Part shown: positions 14,168 to 39,231 of the stretch, one piece after another
How the letters are laid out: every line of letters starts with the position of its first letter
Numbering within the stretch: the first letter of the stretch is position 1
Origin: Alphaproteobacteria bacterium
Lineage (GTDB): Bacteria; Pseudomonadota; Alphaproteobacteria; Micropepsales; Micropepsaceae
Assembly (NCBI GenBank): GCA_019241645.1
Contig: JAFAWQ010000022.1
Span: 62,001-126,000 of the forward strand
Direction: 5' to 3'
DNA length: 64,000 nt
Notes under the pieces: model-generated
Databases searched by the model: none
Seen by the model: only the letters and a program-made list of their open reading frames with translations
Told to the model about the DNA's origin: nothing
Program-made: the position numbers and the translations under genes

Positions 14168-15024
14168 GTCCGCCGCCTCTTGCTTGCCAGAATGCGTACC
14201 AATGTGTTGATCGACAGAACGGTGAAAGCAATCAGCAGTGAACCAGCCCAGGCCAACCGCTGCCAGTCCTCATAGGGGCTCAGTGCGAAGCTGAAAATCG
14301 TCACCGGCAGATTGGCAATCGGCTTCAGCAGATTCAGGCTGAAGAACTGATTGTTGAGCGAGGTGAACAGCAGCGGCGCCGTTTCACCGGAAATGCGGGC
14401 GAAGGCCAGCAGCGCGCCTGTGATGATTCCGCCGGCCGAGGCTTTCCACAGAATGCGCCGGATTGTGATCCAGATGGGCGTGCCCAACCCTGCGCCGGCC
14501 TCCCGCAATGCCCTGGGCTGCAGCCGCAAAACATCTTCCGTCGCCCGGGTGACGATGGGAGCGGCAATCAGCGCCAGCGCCAGCGCGCCCGCCAGGGCGG
14601 AGAAGCTGTGCAGCGGACGCACGGCAATGACATAAACAAACAGGCCCACCAGGATCGATGGGGCGGACAACAGCACGTCGTTGATGAAGCGGACAGTCTT
14701 CGCATACCAATTGTCGGTGCTGTATTCGGCAAGCCAGGTCCCCGCCAGCATGCCCACAGTCACGGCTATGGTCATAGCCGCCGAGCACAGAAACAACGAT
14801 CCCAGAAGAGCGTTGCGCAATCCGCCCGGCGCGCCAGGCGGCGGCGTGTCTTCGGTGAATACCGCCAGGTCCAGCCCGCCGATTCCCTTGCGCAACAGCG
14901 AGGCGAGAATGATCGCCAGAACGACGAGCGCGACAACGGTCGCCAGCGTGCAGACGATTACGAACGTGGCGTTGGCTAGCCTGCGCCGGCCGCGTCGATC
15001 GAAGATGCCAGTGAAGCCGCTCAT
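14164..15024 (-). CDS. pstA: Phosphate ABC transporter permease PstA
   Basis: This is one of the two inner-membrane channel subunits of the phosphate importer. The 286-residue product has about six membrane helices and the binding-protein-dependent permease loop near residues 165-195 ([21 protein letters not shown]), which docks onto PstB. It overlaps pstB at its end and pstC at its start, each by four bases. The N-terminal helix is preceded by a short basic stretch ([10 protein letters not shown]). Confidence 0.95.
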
Positions 15025-15983
15025 GTTCCGTGACCGTGCCCCAGAAGGGCGCGGGCAATGGCCAGCACCGCGAAGGTGATCAGGAAGAGCAGAAATCCAA
15101 GCGCGAGCAGCGCGGAAATGTGCATGGGGCTGGTCGCTTCGGCAAATTCATTGGCGATGATGGAGGAGATGGTGGCGCCGGAATCGAACAGGCCGCGCGG
15201 CAAACGGTGCGAATTGCCGATCACGAAGGTGACGGCCATGGTTTCGCCCAGCGCCCGGCCGAGCCCCAGCATCACGGCGCCGATGGCACTGCGGCGCACA
15301 TAAGGGACGATCACCGACCATACCACTTCCAGAGGGGTGCAGCCCATTCCATAAGCGCTTTCGCGCACGCGCGGCGGGATCGACAGGAAGAGCTCCCGGA
15401 GGGTGGCCGCGATGTAGGGCAGGATCATGATCGCAAGAATGATCGACGCGGTGAACACGCCGGAGCCGTTGGGAATACCGGTGAAAATCTTTCCCCAGAT
15501 CGAGTCTGGCGCCGCCCACGCCATCAGCGGCGCCTCCACGTACTTTGCAAACACCGGCGCAAAGACGAAAAGCCCCCACATGCCGTAGACGATAGATGGA
15601 ATTCCCGCCAACAGCTCGACCGCGATTCCGATGGGCCTTCGCAGGAATTGCGGACAAAACTCGGTGAGGAAAACGGCGGTAAAAAATGCGAGCGGGAGAG
15701 CAATCAGAAGCGCGACCACGGAAGTGATCAGGGTGCCCAGGATGGGACCGGCGCCGCCGTAGACGTCGGTCACAGGGTTCCAGGTCGTGGAGGTGAAAAA
15801 GCTCAGGCCGAAGGTCGATAGTGCCGGCCATCCGCCGATCGCCAGCAGAATGCAGAGCCCGCCCATGGCACAAAGCAGCGCAGTTGCCGCCGCGCCGCAG
15901 GCATAACGGAAGAAAGGCTCCGCCAGCGCCCCTCGCGCCTGGGCAAGCATCGGTCGGCTGGACACGGCTGTGGCGGAAACCAT
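15021..15983 (-). CDS. pstC: Phosphate ABC transporter permease PstC
   Basis: This is the second channel subunit of the Pst importer, 320 residues long, with six membrane helices. The permease docking loop is RESAYGMGCTPLEVVWSVIV, near residues 205-225. It is first in the leftward operon; no periplasmic phosphate-binding protein gene (pstS) precedes it here, so pstS must lie elsewhere. A Pho-box-like site at 16036-16053 in the same orientation lies about 53 bases upstream of the start, consistent with induction by PhoB on phosphate starvation. A clear Shine-Dalgarno is not visible. Confidence 0.95.
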   Translation of the reverse strand: MVSATAVSSRPMLAQARGALAEPFFRYACGAAATALLCAMGGLCILLAIGGWPALSTFGLSFFTSTTWNPVTDVYGGAGPILGTLITSVVALLIALPLAFFTAVFLTEFCPQFLRRPIGIAVELLAGIPSIVYGMWGLFVFAPVFAKYVEAPLMAWAAPDSIWGKIFTGIPNGSGVFTASIILAIMILPYIAATLRELFLSIPPRVRESAYGMGCTPLEVVWSVIVPYVRRSAIGAVMLGLGRALGETMAVTFVIGNSHRLPRGLFDSGATISSIIANEFAEATSPMHISALLALGFLLFLITFAVLAIARALLGHGHGT

Positions 15984-16035
15984 GGTAGGACTTATGTGGA
16001 TCGTTGGGCGCTATCGCGCCATTTACTGGGCCATC

Positions 16036-16053
16036 TTCACGGTTTTATGACGT
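16036..16053 (-). promoter_or_regulatory. Pho-box-like site upstream of pstC
   Basis: Read on the - strand the 18 bases are ACGTCATAAAACCGTGAA. Compared with the consensus CTGTCATAAANCTGTCAY, 13 of the 17 specified positions match, including the GTCATAAA core and the second half C.GT.A. It lies between pstC and the phoR start chosen here. It is the expected position for PhoB activation of pstCAB. Confidence 0.55.
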
Positions 16054-16115
16054 TGCCCCGCCAATCCCAAGCGGCGAGTCGCAAAAGCGTCATGCTTCAG
16101 AGGCAGAATGCGGTC

Positions 16116-17333
16116 ATGGCTGTGCTGTCCTTTCCCTGGCGAAAAAGTGCTGCTTTGCCGGACTCAGCGGCCACGCCGACGGCCAACGACCGCCTGTCCC
16201 TTCTGGCTGCCGTGGTCGACCTGCTGCCGGACCCCGTTCTCATTGTCCAGCGGGCCGCTATGCCGAACGCTCCGGTTCGGGTCATGGCCAGCAACGCGGC
16301 AGCACAGGAACTGCTTCGCATCCGGGGTGACGGCGAAAGCCTGATCGCCGTGCTCCGGCACCCGGAAGTCCTGGGCACTGTCGAGAACACGCTGGCGACA
16401 GGCGAAGGCCGGACCATGACCTATGAGACGGGCGGCCCCCAGTCGCGCGCCTTTCGCGTATGGACGAAAATGCTCGAAAATGATGCCCGGCAATCGGCGC
16501 TTGTCGTTCTCCGCGACGAGACCGACGCACGGCGGCTGGAACGCATGCGCGCGGACTTCCTCGCCAATGCGAGCCATGAATTGCGCACGCCGCTGGCTTC
16601 CATCACGGCATATGTGGAGACCCTGCAAGGTCACGCCCGGGACGACATCGAGGCGCGTGACCGCTTTCTGGCGATCATGTCCGTTCAGGCGCGGCGCATG
16701 GGTCGGCTGATCGACGACCTGATGTCACTTTCGCGCATCGAGCTGAACGAGCGCGTGCCGCCTTCCGGCGTTTGCGATGTGGCGCTGGTGGCGCGTGAAG
16801 TCATCGACGGATTGCTGCCGGTTTGTTCCGGCAAGAACGTCCGGCTGCAACTGACCGCGCCCGCGGGAAGCCAGGTTGTCGCCAGCGGCGAACGGGATCA
16901 AATCGCGCAGGTCATGCAGAACCTGATCGATAACGCGGTGAAATATGCGCCCGAGGGAACAACGGTGTTGATCAGCGTGAATGCGAGCGCATCGTTCGAG
17001 CCCGAAGCCGAAGGGCCCGATGCCAATGTCTTACGGGAACAGGGGGGTGGGCGGGTCTGCCTCGTCTCGCCCGAGCGGTCCCACGAGCAGCGTTATGTGA
17101 TGGTCCGCATCGCGGATCAGGGAAGTGGTATTGCCCGCGAGCACCTTCCCCGGCTGACCGAGCGATTCTATCGCGTTCCAGGGCAGAAGAGCGGAGAGAT
17201 CGGCGGCACTGGCCTCGGACTTGCAATCGTAAAGCATATTGTGAACCGGCATCGGGGCGGGCTGGCCGTTGAAAGCGTGCCGGGGCAGGGCACTGTCTTT
17301 GCTGTCTTTCTCCCGCAGGGGGAATTTGGTTAG
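16116..17333 (+). CDS. phoR: PhoR-like sensor histidine kinase, apparently soluble
   Basis: This kinase is the likely partner of PhoB. A PAS-like domain (about residues 25-125) is followed by a HisKA dimerisation domain with the phospho-acceptor His in ANASHELRTPLASI, then an HATPase with N box (NLIDNAVKYAPEG), DQGSGI and GGTGLGLAIVKH. I see no membrane-spanning segment, whereas PhoR normally has one or two. The start is uncertain: the frame opens at 15996, but that would leave 12 bases to pstC and put the Pho box inside the gene, so I chose the ATG at 16116, with AGAGG upstream. Even the longer version adds no hydrophobic helix. phoU and phoB follow on the same strand. Confidence 0.88.
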   Translation: MAVLSFPWRKSAALPDSAATPTANDRLSLLAAVVDLLPDPVLIVQRAAMPNAPVRVMASNAAAQELLRIRGDGESLIAVLRHPEVLGTVENTLATGEGRTMTYETGGPQSRAFRVWTKMLENDARQSALVVLRDETDARRLERMRADFLANASHELRTPLASITAYVETLQGHARDDIEARDRFLAIMSVQARRMGRLIDDLMSLSRIELNERVPPSGVCDVALVAREVIDGLLPVCSGKNVRLQLTAPAGSQVVASGERDQIAQVMQNLIDNAVKYAPEGTTVLISVNASASFEPEAEGPDANVLREQGGGRVCLVSPERSHEQRYVMVRIADQGSGIAREHLPRLTERFYRVPGQKSGEIGGTGLGLAIVKHIVNRHRGGLAVESVPGQGTVFAVFLPQGEFG

Positions 17334-17426
17334 CGCCGGGGCCAGACACAAAACCTTTGCAAATCTGTCACATGGTGCGCACATGACGGAGACATTTTCG
17401 CCGCGGCGATGGGAGCCATTCCGTAG

Positions 17427-18146
17427 ATGACCGAGCATACCCTCAAATTCTTCGGCGAAGAGCTGGAGCAGTTGAAGGCGGAAGTGATCCGCATGGGCGG
17501 GATTGTCGAGTCGCAGGTGGCTCAGGCGGTCCGCGCGGTGGCAGACAGGGATGTGGGCCTTGCCGAACGCGTGGTGATCGAAGACGAGCGGCTGGATGTG
17601 CTTCAGCATGAGGTCGAGCGCGGAGCCATCCGGCTCATTGCCCTGCGCCAGCCCGTGGCGCAGGACCTCCGCCGTACGGTCGGATCGCTGAAGTTAAGCC
17701 TGGTGCTTGAACGCGCCGGCGACTACGCCAAGAACATCGCCAAGCGGGCGCTGGTGATCGCGCATGCCGATCCGGAGATTCCGCTGACCCGTTCGGTGCA
17801 GAGAATGGGTGAGCTGGTCGGCGACCGGCTGAAAGAGGCGCTCGATGCGTACAGCGCGGGGGATGTCGACGCGGCACGGAACGTCTGGAACCGCGACGAG
17901 GATATCGACGAGCACTACAACAGCCTGTTCCGCGAGCTGCTGACCTACATGATGGGCGATCCGCACACCATCGCCGCCTGCGCGCATCTGCTGTTCGTCG
18001 CCAAGAATCTGGAGCGCATCGGCGATTACTGCACCAGCATCGCGGAGATCGTGCAGTACGAAGTGGCCGGCGAGGAGTTCCTGGACCCGCGGCCGAAATG
18101 GAGCAGTGTGGAGCCGCCGGCGCGCAGCTCGGGAGAGCCGGCATGA
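17427..18146 (+). CDS. phoU: Phosphate signalling regulator PhoU
   Basis: PhoU is a cytoplasmic protein that connects the Pst transporter to PhoR and keeps the Pho regulon off when phosphate is plentiful. The 239-residue product has two copies of the three-helix PhoU domain, each with an acidic metal-binding patch (near RAGDYAKNIAKRA and LERIGDYCTSIAE). It starts about 90 bases after phoR and overlaps phoB at its end, so phoR-phoU-phoB is one unit. A perfect Pho half-site (CTGTCAC) lies in the gap before it, but I could not see a convincing second half. Confidence 0.96.
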   Translation: MTEHTLKFFGEELEQLKAEVIRMGGIVESQVAQAVRAVADRDVGLAERVVIEDERLDVLQHEVERGAIRLIALRQPVAQDLRRTVGSLKLSLVLERAGDYAKNIAKRALVIAHADPEIPLTRSVQRMGELVGDRLKEALDAYSAGDVDAARNVWNRDEDIDEHYNSLFRELLTYMMGDPHTIAACAHLLFVAKNLERIGDYCTSIAEIVQYEVAGEEFLDPRPKWSSVEPPARSSGEPA

Positions 18147-18826
18147 AGCCGTCTGTCCTCGTGGTCGAGGACGAAGACGCGCTTGCCACCCTTCTTCGCT
18201 ACAATCTTGAGCGCGAAGGCTTCGAGCCGCGCCTGGCCGGCGACGGCGAGGAAGCGCTGATTGCCGTGGACGAACAGCTGCCGGACGTGGTGGTGCTCGA
18301 CTGGATGCTCCCCAAAACGTCCGGCGTTGAAGTGTGCCGCCGCCTGCGCAACCGGCGGGAAACGCGCAACGTTCCCATCATCATGCTGACGGCGCGCGGC
18401 GAGGAGACCGACCGCATCCGCGGATTGGAAATCGGCGCCGACGATTACGTCGTCAAGCCGTTCTCGATGGCCGAGCTGATCGCGCGGATTCGTGCCGTGC
18501 TGCGCCGCATCCGCCCGGGCCTTGCCGCGGACCAGCTGAAGCACGGCGAGATCGTGCTCGACCGCGCCGCGCACCGCGTGCTGCGTTCGGGGCGCGAGGT
18601 GCATCTTGGCCCTACCGAATACCGGCTGCTCGAGCACTTCATGCAGTATCCCGGCCGGGTCTTCAGCCGCGAGCAGCTGCTGGATGCTGTGTGGGGCTCG
18701 GACGTTTACGTGGAGATGCGCACGGTGGACGTTCATGTGGGCCGCTTGCGCAAATCGCTGATCGGCGAGGGCGAAACCGATCCCATCCGCACGGTGCGCT
18801 CCGCCGGCTACTCGATGCAGAGCTGA
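18143..18826 (+). CDS. phoB: Phosphate regulon response regulator PhoB
   Basis: This is an OmpR-family DNA-binding response regulator of 227 residues. The receiver domain has the acidic pocket VVEDED, the phospho-acceptor Asp in VVLDWMLP (about residue 53), a Thr in MLTARG and a Lys in YVVKPFS. The C-terminal winged helix ends with RTVDVHVGRLRKSL and VRSAGYSM. I chose the ATG at 18143 because it overlaps the phoU stop as ATGA, with GGGAGAG upstream. It should bind Pho boxes such as the one before pstC. Confidence 0.96.
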   Translation: MKPSVLVVEDEDALATLLRYNLEREGFEPRLAGDGEEALIAVDEQLPDVVVLDWMLPKTSGVEVCRRLRNRRETRNVPIIMLTARGEETDRIRGLEIGADDYVVKPFSMAELIARIRAVLRRIRPGLAADQLKHGEIVLDRAAHRVLRSGREVHLGPTEYRLLEHFMQYPGRVFSREQLLDAVWGSDVYVEMRTVDVHVGRLRKSLIGEGETDPIRTVRSAGYSMQS

Positions 18827-19279
18827 CTCACGCCGCTTCGCCCATAAAAAAGGCGGGACGTTCGATCCCCTTTTCCGTTTCGTCCGCATGTGGCGAACGT
18901 GAGCAGGAATGAAGGGCGCGAAACCCGCCTGGCTTCAAGCTTGGCAGGCCTCCGATGTGCTGACGTCACTCAAGACGCCGCCGGCAGGCACCATCGCTTC
19001 TCCCCACGGAACTTGCGAATATACTTGGAATCTACCCCTGCGAGCGGCCCTTGAGCGCTCCGCAGGCTGGCAAGTTTCCCGATTTCGCGCGGGTGCGCGC
19101 GAGGCTGCACCCTTGCCCTGTATGTCCTCGCGCCTGCCTAGCTCATGACACCAATTCTTCCAAACCATCTAGCAAGAACATAAGACGAACATTGGGAAGG
19201 TGCAAGGGGTAAGGAGGATTATTTTTAGAGTGACGGAAGGACCGATGACGCGGCCGCGCGAGTCGGAGTAAGCACGGCC
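18827..19279. other. Gene-free stretch after phoB
   Basis: About 450 bases lie between phoB and the truncated restriction gene. The short open frames here have neither ribosome-binding sites nor recognisable composition. I see no tRNA, strong hairpin or repeat shared with the rest of the window. A well-formed AGGAGG near 19213 is not followed by a start codon of a usable frame. It borders a rearrangement junction, so it may hold decayed sequence. Confidence 0.5.
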
Positions 19280-19708
19280 ATGCCGCTGTTTAGCCCGAAA
19301 ACGATTTCCGCCGCACTGGCTGGGTTTTCGTTTGCCCCTAACGCAACGCAACTCGAAGCGGCAAAGAAGTGGGCGGAGTTGGTACGCAGTGGCTTCATCT
19401 GGCGGCCGAAGGAAACGTCGCTGGAGGCGGACTTCAACCGCTATGTTGTTCAGGACATTCTCGGATATCGCTCCTTCGATTCTACGGGCGTGGCCACCGT
19501 CTCGGTGAAACAGGCTATCGGCTCGGGCGAAGTCGATCTCGCACTGGGCCATTTCGGACCTGGCAAGGCAGAAGTTCTGGCGCCTTTCGAACTGAAAGGC
19601 CCTTCACTGGAAAATCTCGACTCGAGGGCCGCGAAATTCCACCGTCCCCAACTTCCGGCAACCGTGGCGAAATCGCCAAGTGGCGGCGCTCGCAAGCCGA
19701 AAACCTGA
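19280..19708 (+). pseudogene. Truncated type IIG-like restriction-modification protein (N-terminus only)
   Basis: The first 113 or so residues look like the N-terminal domain of large type IIG (Eco57I-like) restriction-methyltransferases: AAKKWAELVRSG, then KETSLEADF, DILGYR, a GSGEVDLALGHFG strand, and APFELKGPSLENLD. In full-length relatives this runs on into a methylase of several hundred residues. Here the homology stops after LENLD at about 19620, where the DNA changes to a copy of the trmD 3' end read in another frame, and the frame ends at 19708. The ATG at 19280 has a GGAG upstream. It is probably a non-functional scar, although a short protein could still be made. Confidence 0.65.
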
Positions 19709-19761
19709 CAAAATCCATCTGTCCGGACCTCTGGACCCTCTATGAAAAGAGAAAGCCATAG
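19622..19761 (+). pseudogene. trmD: Decayed 3' end of trmD upstream of rplS
   Basis: In the frame ending at TAG 19759-19761 the translation (REIPPSPTSGNRGEIAKW, then RRSQAENLTKS and PDLWTL) matches the last 45 residues of the intact TrmD encoded at 26487-27194. The two DNAs align without gaps at about 80 percent. Several changes hit conserved positions (VLN to SPT, H to R), as expected for a relic. It sits 57 bases before rplS, exactly where the trmD end belongs in the standard rpsP-rimM-trmD-rplS operon. It is too short to be an enzyme. Confidence 0.85.
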
Positions 19762-19818
19762 GCTAAGAGCCGGGCCTTCCAACCATGCTTTCAAAGCCGC
19801 CGCCCGGAGTCCGAAGCC

Positions 19819-20250
19819 ATGAACCTGCTGAAACAGCTCGAAGCCGAGCAGATGAAGGCCGTCCGCGGCGGCAAGGGCCTTCCCGAATTCCGTCCGGGCG
19901 ACACGCTCAAGGTTAACGTCAAGGTGGTCGAGCAGACCTGGGACGAAAAAGCCAAGCAGATGAAGACTCGCGAGCGCCTTCAGGCGTTCGAAGGTGTGTG
20001 CATCGGACGCCAGGGTGCCGGCGTGAACGAGAGCTTCACCGTGCGGAAGATCTCCTATGGCGAAGGCGTGGAGCGTGTGTTCCCCATGTTCTCGCCGCTG
20101 GTCCATTCCGTGCAGGTTGTTCGCAAGGGCCGCGTGCGCCGCGCCAAGCTCTATTACCTGCGCGGACGGCGCGGGAAGAGCGCGCGCATTGCCGAGCGTA
20201 CCGATCGCGGCGTGGAAGAAGGCACGGCACCGGAATCCACCGCCTCCTAA
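19819..20250 (+). CDS. rplS: 50S ribosomal protein L19
   Basis: L19 sits at the 30S-50S interface. The 143-residue product has the family core ([41 protein letters not shown]) and an acidic alphaproteobacterial tail. It normally follows trmD; here it has only a trmD remnant upstream, on the opposite strand from the intact trmD-rimM-rpsP genes about 6.2 kb away. Its promoter must therefore be new or lie in the junction. Bases 19822-19845 just after the start codon recur exactly in inverted orientation at 26473-26496, at the end of the intact trmD. Confidence 0.97.
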
Positions 20251-20283
20251 CCCGTTTCGCCGGCGCGCGAGGGGGCGCACGGC

Positions 20284-21174
20284 ATGGAAACCTTCGAGCG
20301 CTGGTTTCTCGATAGCGACCGCAGGCTGACGCCGCTGTGGCGCGCCATTGTCTATTTCACGCTCACCTTCTTTGCGCTGCCGATGATCCTGGACCCGCTG
20401 GCAGCCGGCCTGGCCGAGCGGCTTCAGCTTGGCACAGCCCTCACGCCCGGCGTCATCGCCTTCGCGGAAGGCGAGCAGCTCCTCATCGCGCTGATCGCGA
20501 CCGGCCTGTTCGCCTGGTACGAAGGCCGCCGCATCGACAGCTACTTCCTCCCATTCGGGCAGGCGCTGGGGCGACGCACCTGGGAAGGCGTTCTGACCGG
20601 CGTCGTCATCGCCGGCGGCGTTGCCATCGGCATGATCGCGCTCGGCGGCATGCAGGTGCATGGTATCGCGCTCAGCGGAACCGCTTTGCTCACTTTCGCC
20701 ATCGCGTGGTTGATTGCGATGGTTCTTGTGGGACTGGCCGAAGAGCTGTGGTTCCGCGCCTACTTTCTCAAGACCTTGTGGCAAGCCATCGGCTTCTGGC
20801 CGGCAAGCCTGATCATCGCGGGCATCTTCGCAGCCATGCACTACTTCTTCAAAGACGGCGAGAATGTGTGGGACGTCATCACCCTCCTCTGGTTCAGTCT
20901 CCTCATCTGCTATTCGGTGCGGAAGACGGGAACCCTGTGGTTCGCCGTTGGCCTGCACTTCGCCTTCGACTATATGCAGTTCTTCGTCATCGGCTCACCG
21001 AATGGCACGCTGGTGCCGCAAGGCCGCCTACTGGACGTGACCTTCAACGGACCCGCATGGGTCACCGGCGGCGTCCTCGGCACAGAAGCGAGCCTCCTGA
21101 TGTATCCGATGCTGGCGCTGGCGACGCTTTACGTCTGGCGGCGCGATCCCACGCCTGCTCTCGATCAGCTCTAG
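20284..21174 (+). CDS. CPBP family intramembrane metalloprotease
   Basis: This is a 296-residue inner-membrane protein of the CAAX protease/bacteriocin-processing (Abi) family. About eight hydrophobic segments are visible. The three conserved blocks are present: EELWFRAYF (EExxxR) near residue 155, an HYFFKDGEN His block near residue 187, and HFAFDY near residue 228; the Glu and His residues bind the catalytic zinc. It begins 33 bases after rplS and may share its transcript. The substrate is unknown; relatives act in bacteriocin immunity or in processing small membrane peptides. Confidence 0.88.
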   Translation: METFERWFLDSDRRLTPLWRAIVYFTLTFFALPMILDPLAAGLAERLQLGTALTPGVIAFAEGEQLLIALIATGLFAWYEGRRIDSYFLPFGQALGRRTWEGVLTGVVIAGGVAIGMIALGGMQVHGIALSGTALLTFAIAWLIAMVLVGLAEELWFRAYFLKTLWQAIGFWPASLIIAGIFAAMHYFFKDGENVWDVITLLWFSLLICYSVRKTGTLWFAVGLHFAFDYMQFFVIGSPNGTLVPQGRLLDVTFNGPAWVTGGVLGTEASLLMYPMLALATLYVWRRDPTPALDQL

Positions 21175-21255
21175 ATTTGGTCCCCTTCTTTCCGTCACCT
21201 CACGATCTTGATTGTTGAAGCAAAGTCGCAAGTGCGTTTCCCATCGCATGCGTCT

Positions 21256-21582
21256 GAATTGTTCGTTTTGTTCGGAAAAAAAATCACCACTCCCCCTCCC
21301 ATTACGGGAATTGTTCGTTTTGTTCGGCGAAAAATGGAGAAGGGGGGCCCCTCTGCCTTCGCTGCATCTACCACCACACCAGATGTTGTGCTTCGCGGGC
21401 GGCGGCGCATTTGAAATCACGACTCCGCGCACTTTCGCGCAACGCCTCTTGCCACGTCATGGCCGGGCGTGACCCGGCGGCGGGCAATGACGAAACAGAA
21501 CAGCAATGAAACCGATTCATTCATGCGCACAATATAAGACCGATTGCGCCGTGGTAGACGAATGGTAACAAAATAAATTTAT
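21256..21582. repeat. Dispersed intergenic element, copy 2
   Basis: This copy matches 7172-7499 in the same order of parts, with the left motif duplicated: GAATTGTTCGTTTTGTTCGG occurs at 21256 and again at 21308. Then come TCTACCACCACACCAGATGTTGTG, a shorter GGCCGGGCGTGACCCGGC palindrome, and the A/T-rich right end 21521-21580. The flanking gene-free sequence (21175-21255 and 21583-21831) shows nothing I can name. The direct repeat contains two GTTC words five bases apart. Confidence 0.7.
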
Positions 21583-21831
21583 CTGCCCGCGCCGTCACCA
21601 GTCATGCCGTCCAGCCACCGCAGATCACGTCGCTGAACATAGCCTTCGCAGGGGCAAAGCGATGCCGGAGCAGTTGCCAGCGAGGCCAGCAAACTGCATT
21701 TCGCGATAGAATAACTGTCACCACATGCGGTCACCAGATGCGCCGTCACCAGATTCGCATCTATGCAGTAATGTGGCTTTTCGAGTCGGCCGGCGGGAAC
21801 AGCATGCCCCGCGTCCTCGTTGACGCTTTGC

Positions 21832-22311
21832 ATGAAAGCTCTCACGTATTTATCCCTGATATGCCTGCTGACGGAAATCGGCAGCGACGCTCTGGCGCAG
21901 GGAGTAACCGGCACTTATTCGAACCGGCAGTTTGGATACTCGATCCGTTATCCGGCAGCGCTTCTCCGTCCTCTCTCAACACACAGCGCTGAGGGACAGG
22001 CATTCACCTCGCTTACCGGACACGCTGGGTTTCGCGTTTACGCGATACACCTCAACGGACGCTCCGCCGAAGATGTCGCCGACGAAGCACAAGCGATTTG
22101 CCCAGACCGCCGGCCGAGCTACCGCATTGTGAAACCGACGCTGGCCGCGATCTCCTGTAAGGTCGGCGACCACATCGTCTACCAAAAATCGTTATTGCGG
22201 CGAGACATCGCAATCACCGTGCGCGGCGCATATCCCATAGCGGAAAGGGCAAAATGGGATCCGGTCGTGACATCCATCGCCCATTCGATGGCGGCGGCGG
22301 ACGCGGTTTAG
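21832..22311 (+). CDS. Small secreted protein of unknown function
   Basis: This 159-residue protein has a signal peptide (MKALTYLSLICLL, cleavage near ALA). The mature part begins with a GTYSNRQFGYSIRYPAAL stretch, resembling the opening strand of small beta-rich periplasmic domains, and contains one Cys pair (ICPDRRP and SCKVGD, about 30 residues apart) that could form a disulfide. I chose the ATG at 21832 over a TTG at 21820 because it gives the better signal peptide. It follows 650 bases of gene-free repeat sequence, and no neighbour suggests a role. Confidence 0.7.
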   Translation: MKALTYLSLICLLTEIGSDALAQGVTGTYSNRQFGYSIRYPAALLRPLSTHSAEGQAFTSLTGHAGFRVYAIHLNGRSAEDVADEAQAICPDRRPSYRIVKPTLAAISCKVGDHIVYQKSLLRRDIAITVRGAYPIAERAKWDPVVTSIAHSMAAADAV

Positions 22312-22397
22312 GCTGAAGCACCCTGGCCGCTGCGAGAACTGCAAAGAGCCTTGCGGATTAACCTTTGAACCCCCTCTCACTACGCGGCGGCGCTACG

Positions 22398-22718
22398 CTA
22401 CTGCACGATCTGCAGGATCTTGCGGGTGTAGGGCTCGACGAAAACCACCTTGCCGCCGGCCACGAAGTATTCATAGTTGCGCACTTCCGGCACTTTCGAA
22501 ACCATTCCCAGCGGCACGGGCGCGAGCTGGACCCCATCCGGAATGGTCGCGCCGATCTCCAGCGGCACGGTGACGACGACCGGCTTCACATGCTCGGTCA
22601 CCACATATTCCCGCACCAGCTTGCCATGCGCCGGTTCGATGGTGAGCTTCGTCTCCTGCGCCTGCGCTGCACCCGCGAGCAGCAGCACCGGAACCAGACT
22701 TAAACATGATCGATGCAT
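22398..22718 (-). CDS. DUF1236-like secreted protein
   Basis: This is a 106-residue exported protein with a signal peptide ending at AQA. The C-terminal half carries the pattern of DUF1236, a small alphaproteobacterial periplasmic module: VPLEIGATIPDGVQL, then YEYFVAGGKVVFVEPYTRKI, meaning a Tyr-rich strand pair followed by (V/F)V(D/E)P.TR. The start has GGGGA about eight bases upstream. The function of the family is unknown. It lies downstream of the RNB ribonuclease gene on the same strand, separated by two G/C hairpins, so the two are probably not co-transcribed. Confidence 0.75.
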   Translation of the reverse strand: MHRSCLSLVPVLLLAGAAQAQETKLTIEPAHGKLVREYVVTEHVKPVVVTVPLEIGATIPDGVQLAPVPLGMVSKVPEVRNYEYFVAGGKVVFVEPYTRKILQIVQ

Positions 22719-22780
22719 CGCAAATTCCCCGTTTTGGGTTCAACGGTTCCGGGCCACTCTCGTTCCACGGGTCTGGTTCA

Positions 22781-22805
22781 CCCTCTCCCCCAATGGGGTA
22801 GAGGG
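22781..22805. repeat. G/C-rich hairpin
   Basis: CCCTCTCCCCC, a two-base AT-rich loop and GGGGTAGAGGG form an imperfect stem of about ten pairs. It lies between the RNB ribonuclease gene and the DUF1236 gene and belongs to the C-run/G-run palindrome type also seen in the two larger intergenic repeats. It may act as a transcription or mRNA-stability boundary. Confidence 0.5.
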
Positions 22806-22851
22806 AAAAGTATCAGTCATTCTCTCACATTCTGCGGCCCCCCACCCCTGG

Positions 22852-22875
22852 CCCCTCCCCTCGCTGGGGGAGGGG
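22852..22875 (-). terminator. G/C hairpin just after the RNB ribonuclease gene
   Basis: CCCCTCCCC, TCGC loop region and GGGGGAGGGG pair over about nine positions. It begins about 20 bases after the ribonuclease stop codon on the - strand. There is no T-run, so it is at best a weak or Rho-assisted terminator or a 3' end stabiliser. Confidence 0.4.
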
Positions 22876-22893
22876 AATAAGCAGCAGCCGATT

Positions 22894-24366
22894 TCACACC
22901 GTTGCGAAGTCGATGAAGCCGCGGGGGACATCGGTGTGCAGAAGCTTCACGTGCACGCGGTCGCCCACATCCAGGCCTTCGAAGCCGCGCACCACCTTGC
23001 CTTCCGCCGCCGGTCCCCAAATCCGCGCCCAGGTGCCTTTCTCCGAGGCGCCGGTGACGATGGCATCGAAGCGCTGGCCGATGCGCGACGATAGCAACAG
23101 CGCGGCGGCGGATTTGCGCACCTGACGCTCAACCTTTTGCGCGTTGTCCTCCTGCAAGGTGCAGTGCGCGGCGAGAGCCGACAGCTCCGCATTGTCGTAC
23201 GGGACGGCGCGGCCGCCAATCGATGCCTTCAGCAGCCGCTGGGTAATTAAATCGGGGAAGCGGCGGTTTGGCGCGGTAGAGTGCGTGTAGTCGCGCACCG
23301 CGAGGCCGAAATGTCCCTCGCCCTCCTGTCCGGGAAGCACCATGGCGTATTCGCCGGAACCCAGTAGCTTGACGATGGTGAGCGAGAGATCCTCGAACCC
23401 GTCGGGATCGATCCGCCGCCGCTTCTGCAGAAACAGATCGAGCGCGCCGGCATCCGGCTCCTCCGGCAGGTGCTCGCCGAGATCGAGCGCCAGCGTCACG
23501 ATGCGGTCCCAGCGCTTGGGCGTTTTCAGCACGCGGCGGAGCGTGGGAAACTTCTTGTTCTCGAGATAGCGCGCCGTCACGCCATTGGCGGCTATCATGA
23601 AATCCTCGATCAGATCCTTGGCACGGTTGCGCTGCTCCGCGCGCATGTCGACGAGATTGTCATTCTCGTAGACGGCGCGGGCTTCGGAGGTTTCCAGCTG
23701 CAGCGCGCCTTGCGCCTGACGATTGCCGCGCAAGGCATGCGCGACCCGATCCTGCAGGCGCAAATTTTCATCGAGACCTTTGACCGCCGCGAGTTTTTCC
23801 GGTGGCGGCGCATCGCCATCCATCCAGGCCGCGACGCCATTGTAGGCCAGCTTGGCGTGGTTGAAGACGGTGGCGCGATAGACATCGCCGGCGCTGACCA
23901 CGCCATCGGCGCCGACCGTCATGTCGATGACGATGGCGAGGCGCTCCGCGCCTTCGTTGAGCGATGTGAGGTTGGTCGAAAGTTTTTCCGGCAGCATGGG
24001 GAAAATTTCGGCGGCGGTGTACACCGATGTCGTGTTGGTGGAGGCGTGACCGTCGATGGCGGAGTTCTTCTCCACCAGCGAATCGACATCCGCGATGGCC
24101 ACGAGAATGCGCACGCGCTCCGCGTCGAGCGATTCGGCGAAGGTCAATTGATCGAGGTCTCGCGAATCGTCGTTGTCGATCGAGCACCAGAGCAGATGGC
24201 GCAGGTCGCGAATTTCCGGCGATGACACGGCCGCCGGTCCATCGATCGTATCCACCTCACGCAGCACGGCCTTGGAAAAATCCGGCAGCAAGCCCCGCTG
24301 CAGCATTACATCGTGCGCGATGTCGCGAAGCCAGCTTCTACGGGATGATGAGTGATGACTGGTCAT
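22894..24366 (-). CDS. RNase II/RNase R family (RNB) exoribonuclease
   Basis: The 490-residue product has the RNB catalytic domain with the aspartate cluster DNDDSRDLDQ near residue 65, which binds the two metal ions that drive 3'-5' RNA hydrolysis. Further RNB blocks are RYLENKKFPTLRRV and RDYTHSTAPNRRFPDLITQR. The last 70 residues look like an S1-type RNA-binding fold. It lacks the N-terminal cold-shock domains of full RNase R/II (typically 650-800 residues), so it belongs to the shorter RNB group found in many Alphaproteobacteria. The next gene runs in the opposite direction across a 150-base gap. Confidence 0.9.
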   Translation of the reverse strand: MTSHHSSSRRSWLRDIAHDVMLQRGLLPDFSKAVLREVDTIDGPAAVSSPEIRDLRHLLWCSIDNDDSRDLDQLTFAESLDAERVRILVAIADVDSLVEKNSAIDGHASTNTTSVYTAAEIFPMLPEKLSTNLTSLNEGAERLAIVIDMTVGADGVVSAGDVYRATVFNHAKLAYNGVAAWMDGDAPPPEKLAAVKGLDENLRLQDRVAHALRGNRQAQGALQLETSEARAVYENDNLVDMRAEQRNRAKDLIEDFMIAANGVTARYLENKKFPTLRRVLKTPKRWDRIVTLALDLGEHLPEEPDAGALDLFLQKRRRIDPDGFEDLSLTIVKLLGSGEYAMVLPGQEGEGHFGLAVRDYTHSTAPNRRFPDLITQRLLKASIGGRAVPYDNAELSALAAHCTLQEDNAQKVERQVRKSAAALLLSSRIGQRFDAIVTGASEKGTWARIWGPAAEGKVVRGFEGLDVGDRVHVKLLHTDVPRGFIDFATV

Positions 24367-24519
24367 GGATTCTGCCGTACCTTACTGTTTTCTCGGCAAC
24401 TGCTTGGCACAGTGGAGGCCGATATTCTATCGAACAAACACCGGCGAATGGGGAAGCGCTTCGGCAGAATGATTGGCCGTGCTATTCCCTGCGCTGTTGC
24501 GCATTGTCTCGGTTAGAAA

Positions 24520-25143
24520 ATGAGCGCCGATCGCCGGTTATTTGCTGCCGCCACCGCGCGCAATCGCGAGCCCATCCTCGCGGTTCTGCGCCGCATGCTG
24601 CCCGTCAACGCGAAGGTGCTGGAGATTGCATCCGGCGCGGGTGAGCACGCCACCTTCATGGCCAAGGCGATGCCGGGGCTCGATTGGCAGCCGAGCGATC
24701 CCGACCGCGAGGCGCGCGACAGCATCGCCAGCTGGGTGGCGCACGAAAAGCTGAGCAATGTTCGCGCGCCGGTTGCCATCGACGCGCGCGACGATGTTTG
24801 GGGAGTCGAAGGCCGGGCGCCGTTCGATGCCATCGTTGCCATCAACATGATTCAAATCGCGCCGTGGAGCGCGACTTTGGGTCTGCTGAATGGCGCCGGT
24901 CGGCTTCTCCGCGGCGGTGGTATCCTCTTTCTCTATGGGCCCTTCATGCGCGATGGCCGCCACACCGCGCCTTCCAACGCCGCCTTCGATGCTTCGTTGA
25001 AGGCACGCAATGCCGAGTGGGGCGTACGCGATCTCGACGACGTTCGGGACGCCGCTGTACTGCACGGTCTTCACTTGCGCGAAACCGTGGAGATGCCGGC
25101 GAACAATCTGTCGGTGATCTTCACGAAGGGCGGCAAGCGTTAA
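24520..25143 (+). CDS. DUF938 SAM-dependent methyltransferase
   Basis: This 207-residue protein has the class I methyltransferase loop LEIASGAGEHATFMA (residues about 34-48), a following acidic strand (WQPSDPD) and the INMIQIAPW and LYGPFMRDG blocks that define DUF938. The C-terminal part reads EMPANNLSVIFTK, another family hallmark. The family is widespread in Proteobacteria and its substrate is unknown. The gene stands alone and is followed by a palindromic repeat. Confidence 0.88.
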   Translation: MSADRRLFAAATARNREPILAVLRRMLPVNAKVLEIASGAGEHATFMAKAMPGLDWQPSDPDREARDSIASWVAHEKLSNVRAPVAIDARDDVWGVEGRAPFDAIVAINMIQIAPWSATLGLLNGAGRLLRGGGILFLYGPFMRDGRHTAPSNAAFDASLKARNAEWGVRDLDDVRDAAVLHGLHLRETVEMPANNLSVIFTKGGKR

Positions 25144-25195
25144 GGCGCGATCAGGTTGTATGGAAGCGCGCAGACAGATTTGTCGCCCCCTGCCT

Positions 25196-25322
25196 TTATC
25201 CTCCCCCGTTTACGGGGAGGTGGATCGCACGAGCGATAGCGAGGGCGAGACGGTAAAGGGGAAAGTCGCCCCTCCGCGTCGCACGCGAAACGCGCATTCG
25301 GCACCCGCAAGCGGGGGAGGAT
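25196..25322. repeat. Palindromic intergenic repeat (REP/BIME-like), copy 2
   Basis: The parts are the same and in the same order as at 8770-8900: CCTCCCCCG...CGGGGAGG hairpin, GGTGGATCGC, GAGACGGTAAAGGGG, CGCCCCTCCGCGTCGCACGCGAA, TCGGCACC and a closing GCGGGGGAGGAT. It lies between the DUF938 gene and the converging repeat-protein gene, where it could end transcription from both sides. Confidence 0.7.
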
Positions 25323-25344
25323 GAATCTTTTGAAGGAGCGCGCC

Positions 25345-26364
25345 TCAAGGGTTTCGCACGAAACCATGGGCTACGTTGGCGCCATCGAAATAGAACCCCG
25401 CGATAGCGCCGCTGCGATTGATGCTCTCGGCGGCTGTATACGTCGATCCGCGAGGATCGAACGTCTTGATCTTCCCATCGGCCGTGCGAACGAAGCCATG
25501 ATAGATGAAGGTGCCGCCCTCGTTGTACGAGCCTGTGACCACACCCTTGTCATTGATGGCGAGCGGTTCGGTGGCATGCCCTTTCGACGGGTCGAATGTC
25601 GTGAAGCCGCCACCCGGCGCTCTCAGGAAACCAATGGGCGAGCCAGATTGGAAGCGGTAAAAGAATCCGGTGATCGCGCCAGCGCTATTAACGCCGTACG
25701 GAAAGACTTGCTGCGAATCGGGAGGGTCGAACTTGGTGAAGGATCCATCCGCTCCGCGCACGAAGCCGGAAATCCCAATGCCGCCGGAATAGTACCCGGT
25801 GATCGCGCCATGGCGGTTGATTTTCCACCCCAGTGTCAGAAGCGAAAATGGGCCGTCGAATTTCGTGATCTTGCCATCGGCTGAACGCATAAATCCGTGC
25901 TCAACGTTGTCGGCCGAACAATCAGCGGTGTCACAGTAGAATCCCGCGATTTCCCCCTTGGCATTGATGCTGTGCGGTATTGTTTTTTGCGATCCGGCCG
26001 GGTCGAATTTCGTGATCGCGCCGTCCGCGGTCCGCACAAAGCCGTGAAACCTTGCTCCGTCGAAATAGTGTCCTGTCACCATGCCATCGGCGTTGATTTC
26101 AAAGGCAGTCGTGCTGGTAGCGCCGGGGCCGTCGAAGCTCGCGATCGTTCCGTCGGGTTCACGCACGAAGCCGTGGCGACCCGAGCTGTCGTCGTACATT
26201 CCTGTAATCGCGCCCTTATCGTTGATGCTGTAGGCGTAGGTTCCGACCGATCCTGGTGGATCGAAGGTGGCGTATTTCGCTTTGGCAGCCGCTGCTCCGC
26301 TGCCGAGACCCGCAAAGGTGAGCGCCACTGCGCTAGAAAAGGCAATGTTGAAAAATCTGGACAT
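25345..26364 (-). CDS. Secreted seven-repeat protein (INxxGxxTG type)
   Basis: This is a 339-residue exported protein with a signal peptide ending near AAA. The mature part is made of seven repeats of about 42 residues with the pattern (I/V)N..G.(I/V)(T/A)G.Y.D....HGF(V/M)R..DG.I..FD.PG. The seven cores are INDKGAITG, INADGMVTG, INAKGEIAG, INRHGAITG, VNSAGAITG, INDKGVVTG and INRSGAIAG. This is close to the protein encoded at 46099-47082 and related in style to HAF-family extracellular repeats. Seven such units suggest a seven-bladed beta-propeller. The start has GGGAGGGGG upstream. No membrane anchor or sorting signal is visible. Confidence 0.8.
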   Translation of the reverse strand: MSRFFNIAFSSAVALTFAGLGSGAAAAKAKYATFDPPGSVGTYAYSINDKGAITGMYDDSSGRHGFVREPDGTIASFDGPGATSTTAFEINADGMVTGHYFDGARFHGFVRTADGAITKFDPAGSQKTIPHSINAKGEIAGFYCDTADCSADNVEHGFMRSADGKITKFDGPFSLLTLGWKINRHGAITGYYSGGIGISGFVRGADGSFTKFDPPDSQQVFPYGVNSAGAITGFFYRFQSGSPIGFLRAPGGGFTTFDPSKGHATEPLAINDKGVVTGSYNEGGTFIYHGFVRTADGKIKTFDPRGSTYTAAESINRSGAIAGFYFDGANVAHGFVRNP

Positions 26365-26462
26365 GGTACCCCCTCCCTATTCTGCACCTTTCTCCACCAA
26401 CGTTTGGAACCGCAGATTTATTCCATGCCACCGAACGCATCCCGGTCTTGCAGGACGCAGCC

Positions 26463-26496
26463 CATCTGATCCGGCTTCGAGCTGTTTCAGCAGGTT
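26463..26496 (-). pseudogene. rplS: Remnant of the rplS 5' end, fused to the end of trmD
   Basis: Read on the - strand, 24 bases (26496 down to 26473) are identical to rplS codons 2-9 (19822-19845, encoding NLLKQLEA), and the likeness continues imperfectly for a few more bases (CAGATG). The rplS ATG and the 57-base trmD-rplS spacer are missing, so the intact trmD now stops at a TGA formed out of frame inside the rplS codons. This is a breakpoint relic. Confidence 0.85.
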
Positions 26497-27194
26497 GGCT
26501 TGGATTTTTCATGAAGGGCCCAGAGGTCCGGGCGGCGGGATTTTGTCAGGTTTTCGGCCTGCTCCCGCCGCCATCGGGCGATCTCGCCATGGTTGCCGGA
26601 GTTGAGGACGGGCGGAATTTCGCGGCCTTCGAAGCTCTGCGGCCTTGTGTATTGCGGGTATTCCAGGAGTCGGGCGGAGAAGCTTTCGGCGGCGGGAGAG
26701 GTTTCATCGCCCAGCACACCGGGAATGAGCCGCACGCAGGCCTCGATCAGCGCCATCGCGGCGATCTCGCCGCCCGCCAGCACGAAATCACCGAGAGAGA
26801 TTTCTTCGAGGCTGCGCGCCTCGATAGCGCGCTGGTCCAATCCCTCAAAACGCCCACAGAGCAGGATAACGCCGGCTCCGTGCGACAGTTCTCGCACGCT
26901 CTTCTGTGTCAGAGGGGCGCCACGAGGGGTAAGATAGATCGTCTGAAGGTCCGGATGGCGTTCGCGCGCGGCGTCGATGGCGGCACAGGCCACGTCGGCC
27001 CGCATCACCATGCCCGGCCCGCCGCCGGCCGGCGTATCGTCAACGGTGCGGTGCTTCCCGATCCCGTGCTCGCGAATGTCGCGAACGTCGAGCGACCAGA
27101 GATTTGTCTGGAGCGCCTTGCCAACGAGCGAAATGCCGAGCGGCCCGGGAAACATCTCGGGAAACAAGGTCAGCACGGCCGCGTGCCAGGTCAT
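26487..27194 (-). CDS. trmD: tRNA (guanine(37)-N(1))-methyltransferase TrmD
   Basis: This essential SpoU-class (trefoil-knot) methyltransferase makes m1G37 in tRNA and prevents frameshifting. The 235-residue product has the knot and SAM-binding blocks (GGGPGMVMR, LCGRFEGLDQR, LGDFVLAGGE) and the C-terminal RWRREQAENLTKSRRPDL segment. The last residues (KPTC) come from sequence of the adjacent rplS start, so the original stop codon has been lost, but the enzyme looks complete. It overlaps rimM by four bases. Its usual downstream neighbour rplS is now 6.2 kb away on the other strand. Confidence 0.96.
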   Translation of the reverse strand: MTWHAAVLTLFPEMFPGPLGISLVGKALQTNLWSLDVRDIREHGIGKHRTVDDTPAGGGPGMVMRADVACAAIDAARERHPDLQTIYLTPRGAPLTQKSVRELSHGAGVILLCGRFEGLDQRAIEARSLEEISLGDFVLAGGEIAAMALIEACVRLIPGVLGDETSPAAESFSARLLEYPQYTRPQSFEGREIPPVLNSGNHGEIARWRREQAENLTKSRRPDLWALHEKSKPTC

Positions 27195-27715
27195 TCAACC
27201 CAGCCTTCGCGTTCGGCCTCGGCCTCTTCCGGTGCAGCGACGACGATGCGCCGCTCGGCAATATCGATGCTCGGCACGATCTCTTGCGTGAACGGCATCA
27301 GCACCGTGCCGCCGCCATCTTCCCGATCGATCTCGATCACATCCCCGGCGCCGAAATTGTGCACGGCAACGACCTTGCCGATGCTTCGGCCCTCGGTGTC
27401 TTCAGCCCGCATGCCCAGAAGGTCGGCGTGGTAGAACTCCTGCGTTTCCGGCGAAGGCAAGGTCGCGCGGGCGATGTAGAGTTCGACACCCTTCAGGGAC
27501 TCCGCCGTTTCGCGTGTTGCAATGCCGTCGAACCGCACGACCGCCAAACCTTTGGCTTCGCGCAGCGCCGCGATCGCGAATTTCCGTCCGTCGCGCGTGT
27601 GCAGCGAACCATAGGCGGCGATGTTCTCTGGAGTCTCGGTGAAGGTCTTCACCTTCACCTCGCCTTTGAGTCCCTGCGCGCCGATCACGACGCCGAGCAG
27701 AACATCGCCGGACAT
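27191..27715 (-). CDS. rimM: Ribosome maturation factor RimM
   Basis: RimM assists assembly of the 30S head by binding protein S19. The 174-residue product has the N-terminal RimM barrel (LGVVIGAQGLKGEVKVKTFTE) and the C-terminal PRC-barrel (FYHADLLGMRAED, IGKVVAVHNFGAGDVIEI). It follows rpsP by 16 bases and overlaps trmD, as in the standard operon. Confidence 0.95.
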   Translation of the reverse strand: MSGDVLLGVVIGAQGLKGEVKVKTFTETPENIAAYGSLHTRDGRKFAIAALREAKGLAVVRFDGIATRETAESLKGVELYIARATLPSPETQEFYHADLLGMRAEDTEGRSIGKVVAVHNFGAGDVIEIDREDGGGTVLMPFTQEIVPSIDIAERRIVVAAPEEAEAEREGWVE

Positions 27716-27731: not shown

Positions 27732-28082
27732 TCAGGCCGCCGGGGCTTCCGCCGCCTTGGCTGCTGCGGCGGCGCGCTCCTGTGCCTTCTTCTTCGGCTG
27801 CATCTTCTGCGGATTGTTCTTCTGCAGCGGCTTCACCAGGCCCGCGTCCGCAAGGAAACGGTGCACGCGGTCGCTTGCCGTGGCGCCCTTCGCCATCCAC
27901 GCCTTCGCCTTGTCGAGATCGAGCTTCAGCCGATCCGCATGGTCTTTCGGCAGCAGCGGATTGTAGAAGCCGATCTTCTCGATGAAGCGGCCATCTCGCG
28001 GGCTGTGCGAATCCGCGATGACGACGTTGTAATGCGGGCGCTTCTTGGTGCCGCCGCGCGAAAGCCTGATTTTCAGTGACAT
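27732..28082 (-). CDS. rpsP: 30S ribosomal protein S16
   Basis: S16 is needed for 30S body assembly. The 116-residue product starts with [16 protein letters not shown] and contains the [10 protein letters not shown] and [14 protein letters not shown] blocks. The C-terminus carries an alphaproteobacterial Lys/Ala-rich extension of about 35 residues. It lies 28 bases after ffh and is followed by rimM and trmD. Confidence 0.97.
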
Positions 28083-28110: not shown

Positions 28111-29496
28111 CTATCTGCGTCCGGGGAACATCCCCGGTGGAAGCGTGGGCATGCCGCCGCCGCCCATGATGCCCGAAAGGCCTGCCGGCAAACGGCCGCC
28201 GGATTTCTTCATCGCCTTCATCACGTCAGCCATGGCGCGATGCATCTTCATGAGCTTGTTGACCTCGCTCACTTCCACGCCCGCTCCGACCGCGATGCGC
28301 TTGCGGCGCGAACCGTTGAGCACATCCGGATTGGCGCGTTCTTTACGCGTCATCGACGAGATGATGGCTTCCTGCCGCGTGAGGATCTTGTCGTCGAGCC
28401 CAGCTTGCGCCATCTGGTCTTTCACCTTGCCGACGCCGGGCAGCATCGCGAGCACACCCGTCATCCCGCCCATCTTCTTCATTTGGCGCAGCTGCTCGGC
28501 GAGGTCGTTCATATCGAACTCGCCCTTGCGCATTTTCGCGGCGAGCTTTTCGGCCTTCTCCTTGTCCAGAACCTCGGCCGCTTTCTCGACAAGGCTGACC
28601 ACATCGCCCATGTCGAGGATGCGGCTGGCGACGCGTTCCGGATGGAACGGCTCCAGCGCATCGAGCTTTTCGCCCATGCCCAGGAATTTGATCGGCGCGC
28701 CGGTGACGTGGCGCATCGAAAGCGCGGCACCGCCACGGCTATCGCCATCGGCGCGGGTCAGAACGATGCCCGTCAGCGGAACGCGCTCGTTGAACGACTT
28801 TGCGATGTTCACCGCGTCCTGACCGGTGAGGCTGTCGGCCACCAGAAGCGTTTCGTGCGGCTTGGTGGCTTCGCGCACCGCGGCCACCTCCGCCATGAGT
28901 TGCTCATCGATGTGCTGACGGCCGGCGGTATCGAGAATGAGCGCGTCGTAGCCACCAACGCGGGCTGCTGCCATGGCGCGCCGTGCGATGTCGACCGGCG
29001 TCTGATTGGCGACGATGGGCAAGGTCGGCACGCCTGCCTGCTCGCCGAGAATCTTCAGCTGCTCCATCGCAGCCGGGCGGCGCACGTCGAGCGACGCCAT
29101 CAGCACGCGCTTCTTCTCTTTGCCTTGCAGCAAGAAGCCGAGCTTCGCGGACGTGGTGGTTTTGCCGGAGCCCTGCAAGCCCACCATCAGGATCGGCGAC
29201 GGCGGCGAACCTAGATCGAGGCCGGTGGATTCCTGGCCCAGGGTTTCCACCAGCACGTCGTGCACGATCTTGACGACCTGCTGGCCCGGCGTGACGGAGC
29301 GGATGACTTCGGCGCCGGCCGCGCGCGGGCGCACGCGGTCGACGAACTGCTTGACGACCGGCAGCGCCACATCCGCTTCGATGAGCGCGGAGCGGATGTC
29401 ACCCATCGCTTCGTCGACATCGGCTTCCGTCAACGCGCCGCGGCCGCGCAGGCGGTCGAAGGTGGATGTCAGGCGCTGCTGCAGACTGTCGAACAT
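28111..29496 (-). CDS. ffh: Signal recognition particle protein Ffh
   Basis: Ffh is the GTPase that, with 4.5S RNA, targets nascent inner-membrane proteins to FtsY. The 461-residue product has the N domain, the G domain with [14 protein letters not shown] (G1), DTAGR (G3) and [13 protein letters not shown] blocks, and the methionine-rich M domain ([16 protein letters not shown], then [18 protein letters not shown]). It ends with a Gly/Pro/Met tail. It heads the ffh-rpsP-rimM-trmD run. Two stable hairpins lie in the 140 bases before the start. Confidence 0.97.
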
Positions 29497-35703: not shown

Positions 35704-35863
35704 TGTATATCCTTCTTGGTGTGCACTTTGATAGCTACGGGCCAACGCCGGGATCGCCTGCAAGTTCCGTGGAAAACGCGCATGCGGCAGACGACGTTCG
35801 AAACATAGAGATATTCCCGGCCGTCCATTACTTCTGGACGACCGGGGACTTAGGCGTTTGACG

Positions 35864-36910: not shown

Positions 36911-37161
36911 ACTTGCTAATGCCTCCTCGGCACTTTGGTTGTCGTTGGTGAACGGTGACAGCAATCAGAGCACCCCGATGTCCACGATCACCGCCGCTAT
37001 TGAGACGCTCGCTTGCTCCGAACTATTCCGTGCAGCTGAGTTTTTGCATGCGACGTACATTGTCGCCGGACGAATCCACCTATGTTAATCGCAACGCAAA
37101 ACGTGATCGCTGGGCGGAGGGAACAAGATCATCGGGCGATTCGATCGCGGCCAATGTGTGT

Positions 37162-38070: not shown

Positions 38071-38103
38071 CTGGCGCTCCGAATTTTATTCCACCCCATT
38101 GCG

Positions 38104-38118: not shown

Positions 38119-38193
38119 TATCGTTTCTCTTTATGACGTTACAGGGAAGTAATAGTTCCACGTCTCACGAACCTACCCCCTAAGGAGTGAGAT

Positions 38194-39216: not shown

Positions 39217-39231
39217 GCATGCGACGATAGT

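Follow-up and report, generated by a model that had tools for sequence, protein, structure and literature searches.

DNA duplication associated with inversion was reportedly described in 2011 in Helicobacter pylori, and inversions formed by staggered breaks in Drosophila are said to carry inverted duplicates of the breakpoint DNA at both ends, as does the locus described here. Passages of two later papers claim duplication associated with inversion in Thermus (PMC8963470) and invoke it for hpn/hpn-2 (PMC4671568). Drosophila inversions with duplicated breakpoints have been attributed to staggered breaks (PMC7584159). The DNA analyzed here (the window) is a stretch of 64,000 nucleotides (nt), G000:C40:62001-126000, from the draft genome of an alphaproteobacterium of the Micropepsaceae (G000; 2.87 Mb, 53 contigs, 99.67% complete). 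In the window the ribosomal operon rpsP-rimM-trmD-rplS is divided, and partial copies of the seam between trmD and rplS flank the intervening DNA in inverted orientation. We consider the locus to be, with some reserve, the scar of a chromosome rearrangement with at least three cut sites and a duplicated seam, and not a gene system.

By the definition of duplication associated with inversion and the passages of the citing papers, the locus has two traits of that class: DNA of one breakpoint is present at each end of the rearranged stretch, in inverted orientation, and gene order is inverted relative to relatives (here, opposite strands). It differs from the two-breakpoint form in having at least three cut sites, with a DUF1236 gene and a Rieske gene apart and a methylase gene split. 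Because the two-breakpoint feature is absent, the G000 rearrangement is a variant, not a member, of the class. Unlike in the Helicobacter case, the duplicated seam is internal to a conserved ribosomal operon, and what was copied comprises the end of one gene together with the putative promoter of the gene after it. The Drosophila case, unlike G000, is eukaryotic. Compared with the trmD operon rpsP-rimM-trmD-rplS, the gene content and the rpsP-rimM-trmD order are the same, and rplS is detached and inverted.

Results

The trmD-rplS seam is duplicated

Two inverted repeats relate the ends of the rearranged segment: the trmD tail (arms 19622-19758 and 26496-26632; 137 nt, 79% identity) and the rplS start (arms 19822-19846 and 26472-26496; 25 nt, 100%). 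Local alignment of both seam regions scored 170, whereas the best of 200 base shuffles reached 44, by which a chance match of the copies was ruled out. By blastn the rplS remnant reached 34 nt with two differences (19822-19854 versus 26463-26496); past the 25 exact bases, its similarity alone was not significant (p 0.108). Overall, the seam copies occupy 19622-19854 and 26463-26632, the latter without 64 nt, and the duplicated seam amounts to ~230 bp (trmD tail, leader and the first ~12 rplS codons). The 64 nt absent at the trmD side are the counterpart of 19759-19822, which holds the gene's own stop, the end of the promoter-like element described below, the leader and the rplS start.

Two 1-nt indels, a deletion and an insertion, distinguish the tail from trmD and leave it with no working frame. 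Functional trmD has two extra codons and stops at a TGA that lies out of frame within the rplS remnant (26487-26489), and the full-length gene passes the curated TrmD equivalog cut-off (NF000648; Table 1). Searches of G000 returned one full TrmD match, with the tail as the only second match (residues 180-234), and one RplS match. The original prediction had described both the trmD tail before rplS and the inverted rplS start after trmD, with coordinates right to within a few bases, and its proposal that trmD uses a stop created in the rplS codons is borne out. No known RNA leader was recognized at the seam: over 19200-27300 at E ≤ 1, the sole Rfam match was RT-15 in the RNase II-like gene, below threshold (22.8 bits against a gathering score of 82).

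The split is derived in G000

TrmD and RplS were searched in a genus set of 69 genomes including G000, and adjacency was judged by eye from the contig, strand and position of the matches. TrmD matches were found in 64/69 genomes and RplS matches in 64/69; five of the 68 others (G011, G019, G032, G077, G086) matched neither. In all 63 other genomes matching both, trmD and rplS are adjacent on the same strand; among these, G069 gives a partial TrmD match and G018 one in two pieces, and a second, short RplS match lies on another contig in both G005 and G024. Among the 64/69 genomes with matches, rplS is detached and inverted in G000 only. Together with the inverted repeats, these counts support the earlier claim that a rearrangement separated trmD from rplS and left a partial copy of the seam at both ends. 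The comparison with the closest relatives that had been proposed gave the same answer: G074 and G081 have the two genes together, and the split in G000 is the derived state.

Near genomes were defined as those with the highest sequence identities, G074 and G081 being so ranked (ffh identity to the window 94% for each; 78–83% for the other ffh-bearing loci of that comparison). The order in G074 is ffh-rpsP-rimM-trmD-rplS-CAAX-open reading frame (ORF)-hypothetical gene-DUF1236-Rieske, and in G081 trmD-rplS-CAAX, followed by the contig end. Of the 6.9 kb of the inversion first proposed, the G074 neighborhood has a counterpart for ~3.1 kb only, from rplS to DUF1236. This run (rplS-CAAX-hypothetical gene-DUF1236, 19819-22718) is a block older than the divergence of G000 and G074 that was detached from trmD in G000. 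Among the matches listed, relatives of the CAAX gene at ≥53% identity lie elsewhere, on a contig other than that of rplS, in G013, G023, G035, G070, G072 and G075, with a fragment in G079.

A trmD/rplS split by itself is not unique within the Alphaproteobacteria: the genes lie on opposite strands in L084 and are separated by gaps of 2060 nt in L123, 1722 nt in L148 and 733 nt in L134. No rplS match was found within the available sequence in 3 of 80 loci (L086, L097, L110). L084 was set aside as a similar case, its self search having returned no inverted repeats.

A methylase gene is split between two contigs

The methylase fragment before the trmD tail matched plasmid methylases (28 records) by tblastn over their first 107–114 residues (best, 47.7% over 107 amino acids); alone, it had no Pfam or NCBIfam match. 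Alignment of an intact relative (P0001) to this N-terminal part ends at 19624. When G000 was searched with P0001, residues 114-549 and 550-1056 were matched in two frames on a second contig (G000:C52:62068-64862), the C-terminal part shifting frame near residue 549. P0001 and the C-terminal part carry Eco57I and TaqI_C domains. The halves meet at residue 114 (C40) and residue 114 (C52), with zero residues lost.

The C-terminal part lies 112 nt from a Rieske gene (C52:64975-66555), which is the orthologue of the G074 gene adjoining DUF1236 (418/526 aligned residues identical); on the side opposite Rieske it is flanked by a PBP_like_2 (PstS-type) gene (G000:C52:60936-61958). Because the Rieske gene, neighbor of DUF1236 in G074, adjoins the methylase C-terminal part on C52, and the N-terminal part abuts the trmD tail, at least three sites would have been cut. 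Some match to P0001 was found in 16/69 genus genomes including G000. The methylase gene was probably acquired in the G000 lineage, since the best genus match outside G000 is only 40%, over residues 338-673 (G074).

On C40, the genes before the N-terminal part (13316-18826) were read from the sequence as what we take to be pstCAB, phoR, phoU and phoB. The genes read as pst/pho are thereby divided over C40 (pstCAB-phoR-phoU-phoB) and C52 (pstS-like). As pho genes precede the N-terminal part and a PstS-type gene adjoins the C-terminal part, the methylase gene was probably once situated between phoB and pstS and cut when DUF1236/Rieske and rplS/trmD parted, a contiguity drawn from G000 alone.

Joins of duplication associated with inversion are also characterized by the lack of a long homologous repeat or insertion sequence. 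Here the methylase-trmD join, the sole one that was resolvable, shares only 4 bp between its parents (TCGA); the Rieske-methylase join holds 112 nt. These 112 nt (L195 12863-12974, equal to G000:C52:64863-64974) contain CCGGACCTCT, also present in the trmD tail. As a link between the tail and the DNA before the methylase C-terminal part, this 10-nt match (CCGGACCTCT) was set aside, 11 of 300 shuffles reaching 10 nt. Joining of the C-terminal part to the rplS remnant, which a simple inversion with two cuts would require, was likewise rejected: DNA after the remnant shows no similarity to the start of the C-terminal part (p 0.48–0.82, three scorings). Close relatives of the RNase II-like gene, which lies in the unplaced DNA of the window, were located on other contigs of G074, G080 and G081.

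A promoter-like element usually overlaps the trmD stop

Junctions between trmD and rplS were taken from genus loci L003-L078 and L161-L186, plus L082 and L083. An element of the form TATGAAAAG-N9-TAGGCTATA (TATGAAA...TAGGCTATA; TCTATGAAAAGnnnAAGCnCTAGGCTATACGGCC) is present in 40 of 46 distinct junctions of relatives; the remaining six keep part of it only. It measures 27 nt in all 40 matches, though other lengths were allowed, and 0/200 shuffles match. The trmD stop occupies one fixed place in the element in 35 of the 40 junctions and lies elsewhere in five, with the spacing of the element unchanged. In the relatives' junctions the element is conserved at fixed spacing beyond coding constraint. 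It resembles a -35/-10 pair and is a putative promoter for rplS. Caulobacter housekeeping promoters presumably have a similar -10 (GCTANAWC). At the trmD side of G000 the entire -10-like half of the element is gone. A literature search combining rplS, internal promoter and trmD returned nothing.

Divergence of the two copies

Polarized by G074 and G081, the tail has 11 strict changes of its own (4, 5 and 2 at codon positions 1, 2 and 3) and trmD has eight (1, 2 and 5), with 10 more differing sites weak or ambiguous; these counts used a gap-free alignment despite the two 1-nt indels, which may inflate the count for the tail. The spread over codon positions is as expected for a dead tail and a live trmD. 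In site patterns with seven outgroup pairs other than G074/G081, the pairing of tail and trmD leads (4–9 versus 0–3). By these patterns the tail appears to belong near the G000 clade.

Change on the tail's own branch is ~11–14 in 137 nt (8–10% per site), at which zero changes in 25 nt has p about 0.07–0.12. The exact 25-nt rplS match, called puzzling in the original prediction, is unremarkable, because zero changes is expected with p near 0.1 and two differences follow in the next 9 nt.

Features of the locus

Features of the rearranged locus are collected in Table 1. The genes at 25345-26364 and 46099-47082 encode proteins with repeated GFVR/INxxGxITG units. Both match one stretch of L080 (near 3174) at 32–33%, a stretch of L181 near 429 being listed likewise, and more ORFs of this kind were seen by eye in 34492-47082. 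GC-rich palindromic stretches at 22800-22880 and 25195-25325 (CCCCTCCCC...GGGGAGGGG), near the unplaced DNA, were recorded as an inverted repeat and resemble interspersed repeats.

Table 1. Features at and around the divided trmD operon (window coordinates)
Feature	Position	Strand	Basis or remark
Eco57I/TaqI-type DNA methylase (restriction-modification), N-terminal fragment	19280-19625	+	~115 codons, cut at junction; tblastn
trmD 3'-end, decayed copy	19622-19761	+	First part of duplicated seam; alignments; second TrmD match in genome
TCGA	19622-19625	+	4-bp microhomology common to methylase gene and trmD at junction; side-by-side sequences
rplS-side copy of promoter-like element	19741-19767	+	Ends CTAAG, not CTATA
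Likely rplS ribosome binding site, GGAG	19806-19809	+	Also in G074 and G081
rplS (ribosomal protein L19)	19819-20250	+	Sole genome copy; TIGR01024, 141 bits
CAAX-type membrane protease gene	20284-21174	+	PF02517; directly after rplS in G074 and G081 too
Hypothetical gene	21820-22311	+	63% identity; order as in G074, where one extra ORF separates CAAX from it
DUF1236 gene	22398-22718	-	Last of transported block; PF06823; 84% to G074; order as in G074
Unplaced DNA (~3.7 kb)	22719-26462		Not beside operon in relatives' loci examined
RNase II-like gene	22894-24366	-	In unplaced DNA
DUF938 gene	24520-25143	+	In unplaced DNA
Repeat-protein gene	25345-26364	-	In unplaced DNA
rplS-start remnant	26463-26496	-	Last part of duplicated seam; inverted-repeat scan, blastn
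trmD, intact	26487-27194	-	Ends within rplS remnant; NF000648, 293.1 bits (cut-off 220)
rimM	27191-27715	-	Adjoins trmD in 13/13 and 10/10 operon loci (two locus sets)
rpsP	27732-28082	-	Present in 13/13 and 10/10 operon loci (two locus sets)
ffh	28111-29496	-	Marks the operon's usual site; in 9/10 loci, not in the G004 stretch

Discussion

What the DNA shows directly is an inverted duplicate of the seam, the gene order usual among relatives, a methylase gene in two parts and an element found across the genus. From these, the following course of events is proposed. The ancestor would have had the order ffh-rpsP-rimM-trmD-rplS-CAAX-hypothetical gene-DUF1236-Rieske, with a methylase gene, obtained by lateral transfer, probably lying between phoB and pstS. 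DNA would have been broken and rejoined at three or more sites: in the trmD-rplS seam, between DUF1236 and Rieske, and at methylase codon ~115. The rplS-CAAX-hypothetical gene-DUF1236 block would thereby have become joined to the methylase N-terminus, so that rplS faced away from trmD, and the methylase C-terminus would have come to lie beside Rieske. A seam of ~230 bp would have been retained at both ends, as in duplication-associated inversion. By this, trmD would have kept its full frame and rplS would have carried along a promoter-like element straddling the trmD stop. Later, 64 bp with the trmD stop would have been deleted from the trmD-side copy, and the trmD tail on the rplS side would have decayed. 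We infer that the three joins arose in one event. Had the seam been cut cleanly, either trmD would have lost its end or rplS its putative promoter; duplication of the seam would have spared both, and the overlap of the element with trmD may be the reason that the duplication was tolerated.

Several observations weigh against this reconstruction. The DUF1236-to-trmD-side join is masked by the 3.7 kb of unplaced DNA and a single reciprocal event is not demonstrable; two inversions in succession, with the methylase cut in common, would fit as well, one three-cut event being favored over them because the methylase cut was free of loss. C40 and C52 are separate, unordered contigs of a draft genome. 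The ancestral order draws on few genomes, CAAX lying directly after rplS in two only (G074 and G081) and Rieske being adjacent to DUF1236 in one only (G074), and no pstS was found near phoB in the relatives' four 20-kb pho loci (G013, G022, G021, G016). In the rplS-side element of G000 two fixed -10-like bases are changed and the pattern is not matched, and a simple sigma-70 scan of 18700-20400 gave no promoter site. Tail and trmD differ at 29/137 sites, a species-level distance (G000-G074, 23; G074-G081, 26), and with G074/G081 as outgroup the site patterns for tail plus trmD give no grouping (3 versus 1 and 3).

The single inversion of ~6.9 kb with staggered ends that was first proposed holds in that rplS is inverted and the seam duplicated. 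As one local event it is very improbable, as the split methylase gene and the Rieske gene on C52 need at least three cuts and in G074 none of the RNase II-like, DUF938 and repeat-protein genes adjoins DUF1236. An inversion of this kind would leave an inverted duplicate like the one seen, and could have been the later of two steps. A copying event followed by loss is unlikely, if less so: the tail and the rplS-CAAX-hypothetical gene-DUF1236 block would have been duplicated, inverted, into the methylase site, and the two copies would have coexisted until the original block was deleted except for its first ~34 bp. This would account for both partial copies with no staggered break, and the divergence of the tail (29/137) would give enough time. 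By itself, however, it leaves the Rieske gene beside the methylase C-terminal part unexplained; no significant trace of rplS was found past about codon 12 at the trmD end, and an inverted-repeat scan of 18800-27200 showed no second CAAX gene.

Transfer of the rplS block and trmD tail from a close sister lineage, with loss of the native rplS, would explain why tail and trmD differ like two species, a point that the G074/G081 quartet does not settle. We regard it as improbable. Identities of the block to G074 (rplS 93%, CAAX 79%, DUF1236 84%) fall in the range of the resident operon (rpsP 93%, trmD 80%, rimM 74%), the Rieske gene left behind is also 79% identical to its G074 counterpart, and fast decay of a dead 137-nt stretch would account for the distance. 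An assembly or binning artefact, with a chimeric join at 19622, might be suspected in a draft genome of 53 contigs and is scarcely credible here: the genome, 99.67% complete, has rplS and full trmD once each, the tail is decayed and not copied, trmD acquired its new end independently, and the methylase halves are complementary.

The rearrangement with at least three cuts and a duplicated seam, as preferred here, contributes an alphaproteobacterial case of duplication-associated rearrangement, beyond the organisms that the passages of the citing papers name. It offers a readable case of a deeply conserved operon broken with both parts kept. As a tentative proposal, possible more than probable, the seam may be indivisible by a clean cut in this genus, where the putative rplS promoter straddles the trmD stop, and a duplicating rearrangement would have let an essential operon split without loss; such overlap may hold operons together generally until duplication releases them. 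The scar displays the DNA that each half kept and offers a testable explanation for the conserved gene order, namely overlap of a promoter with a stop codon.

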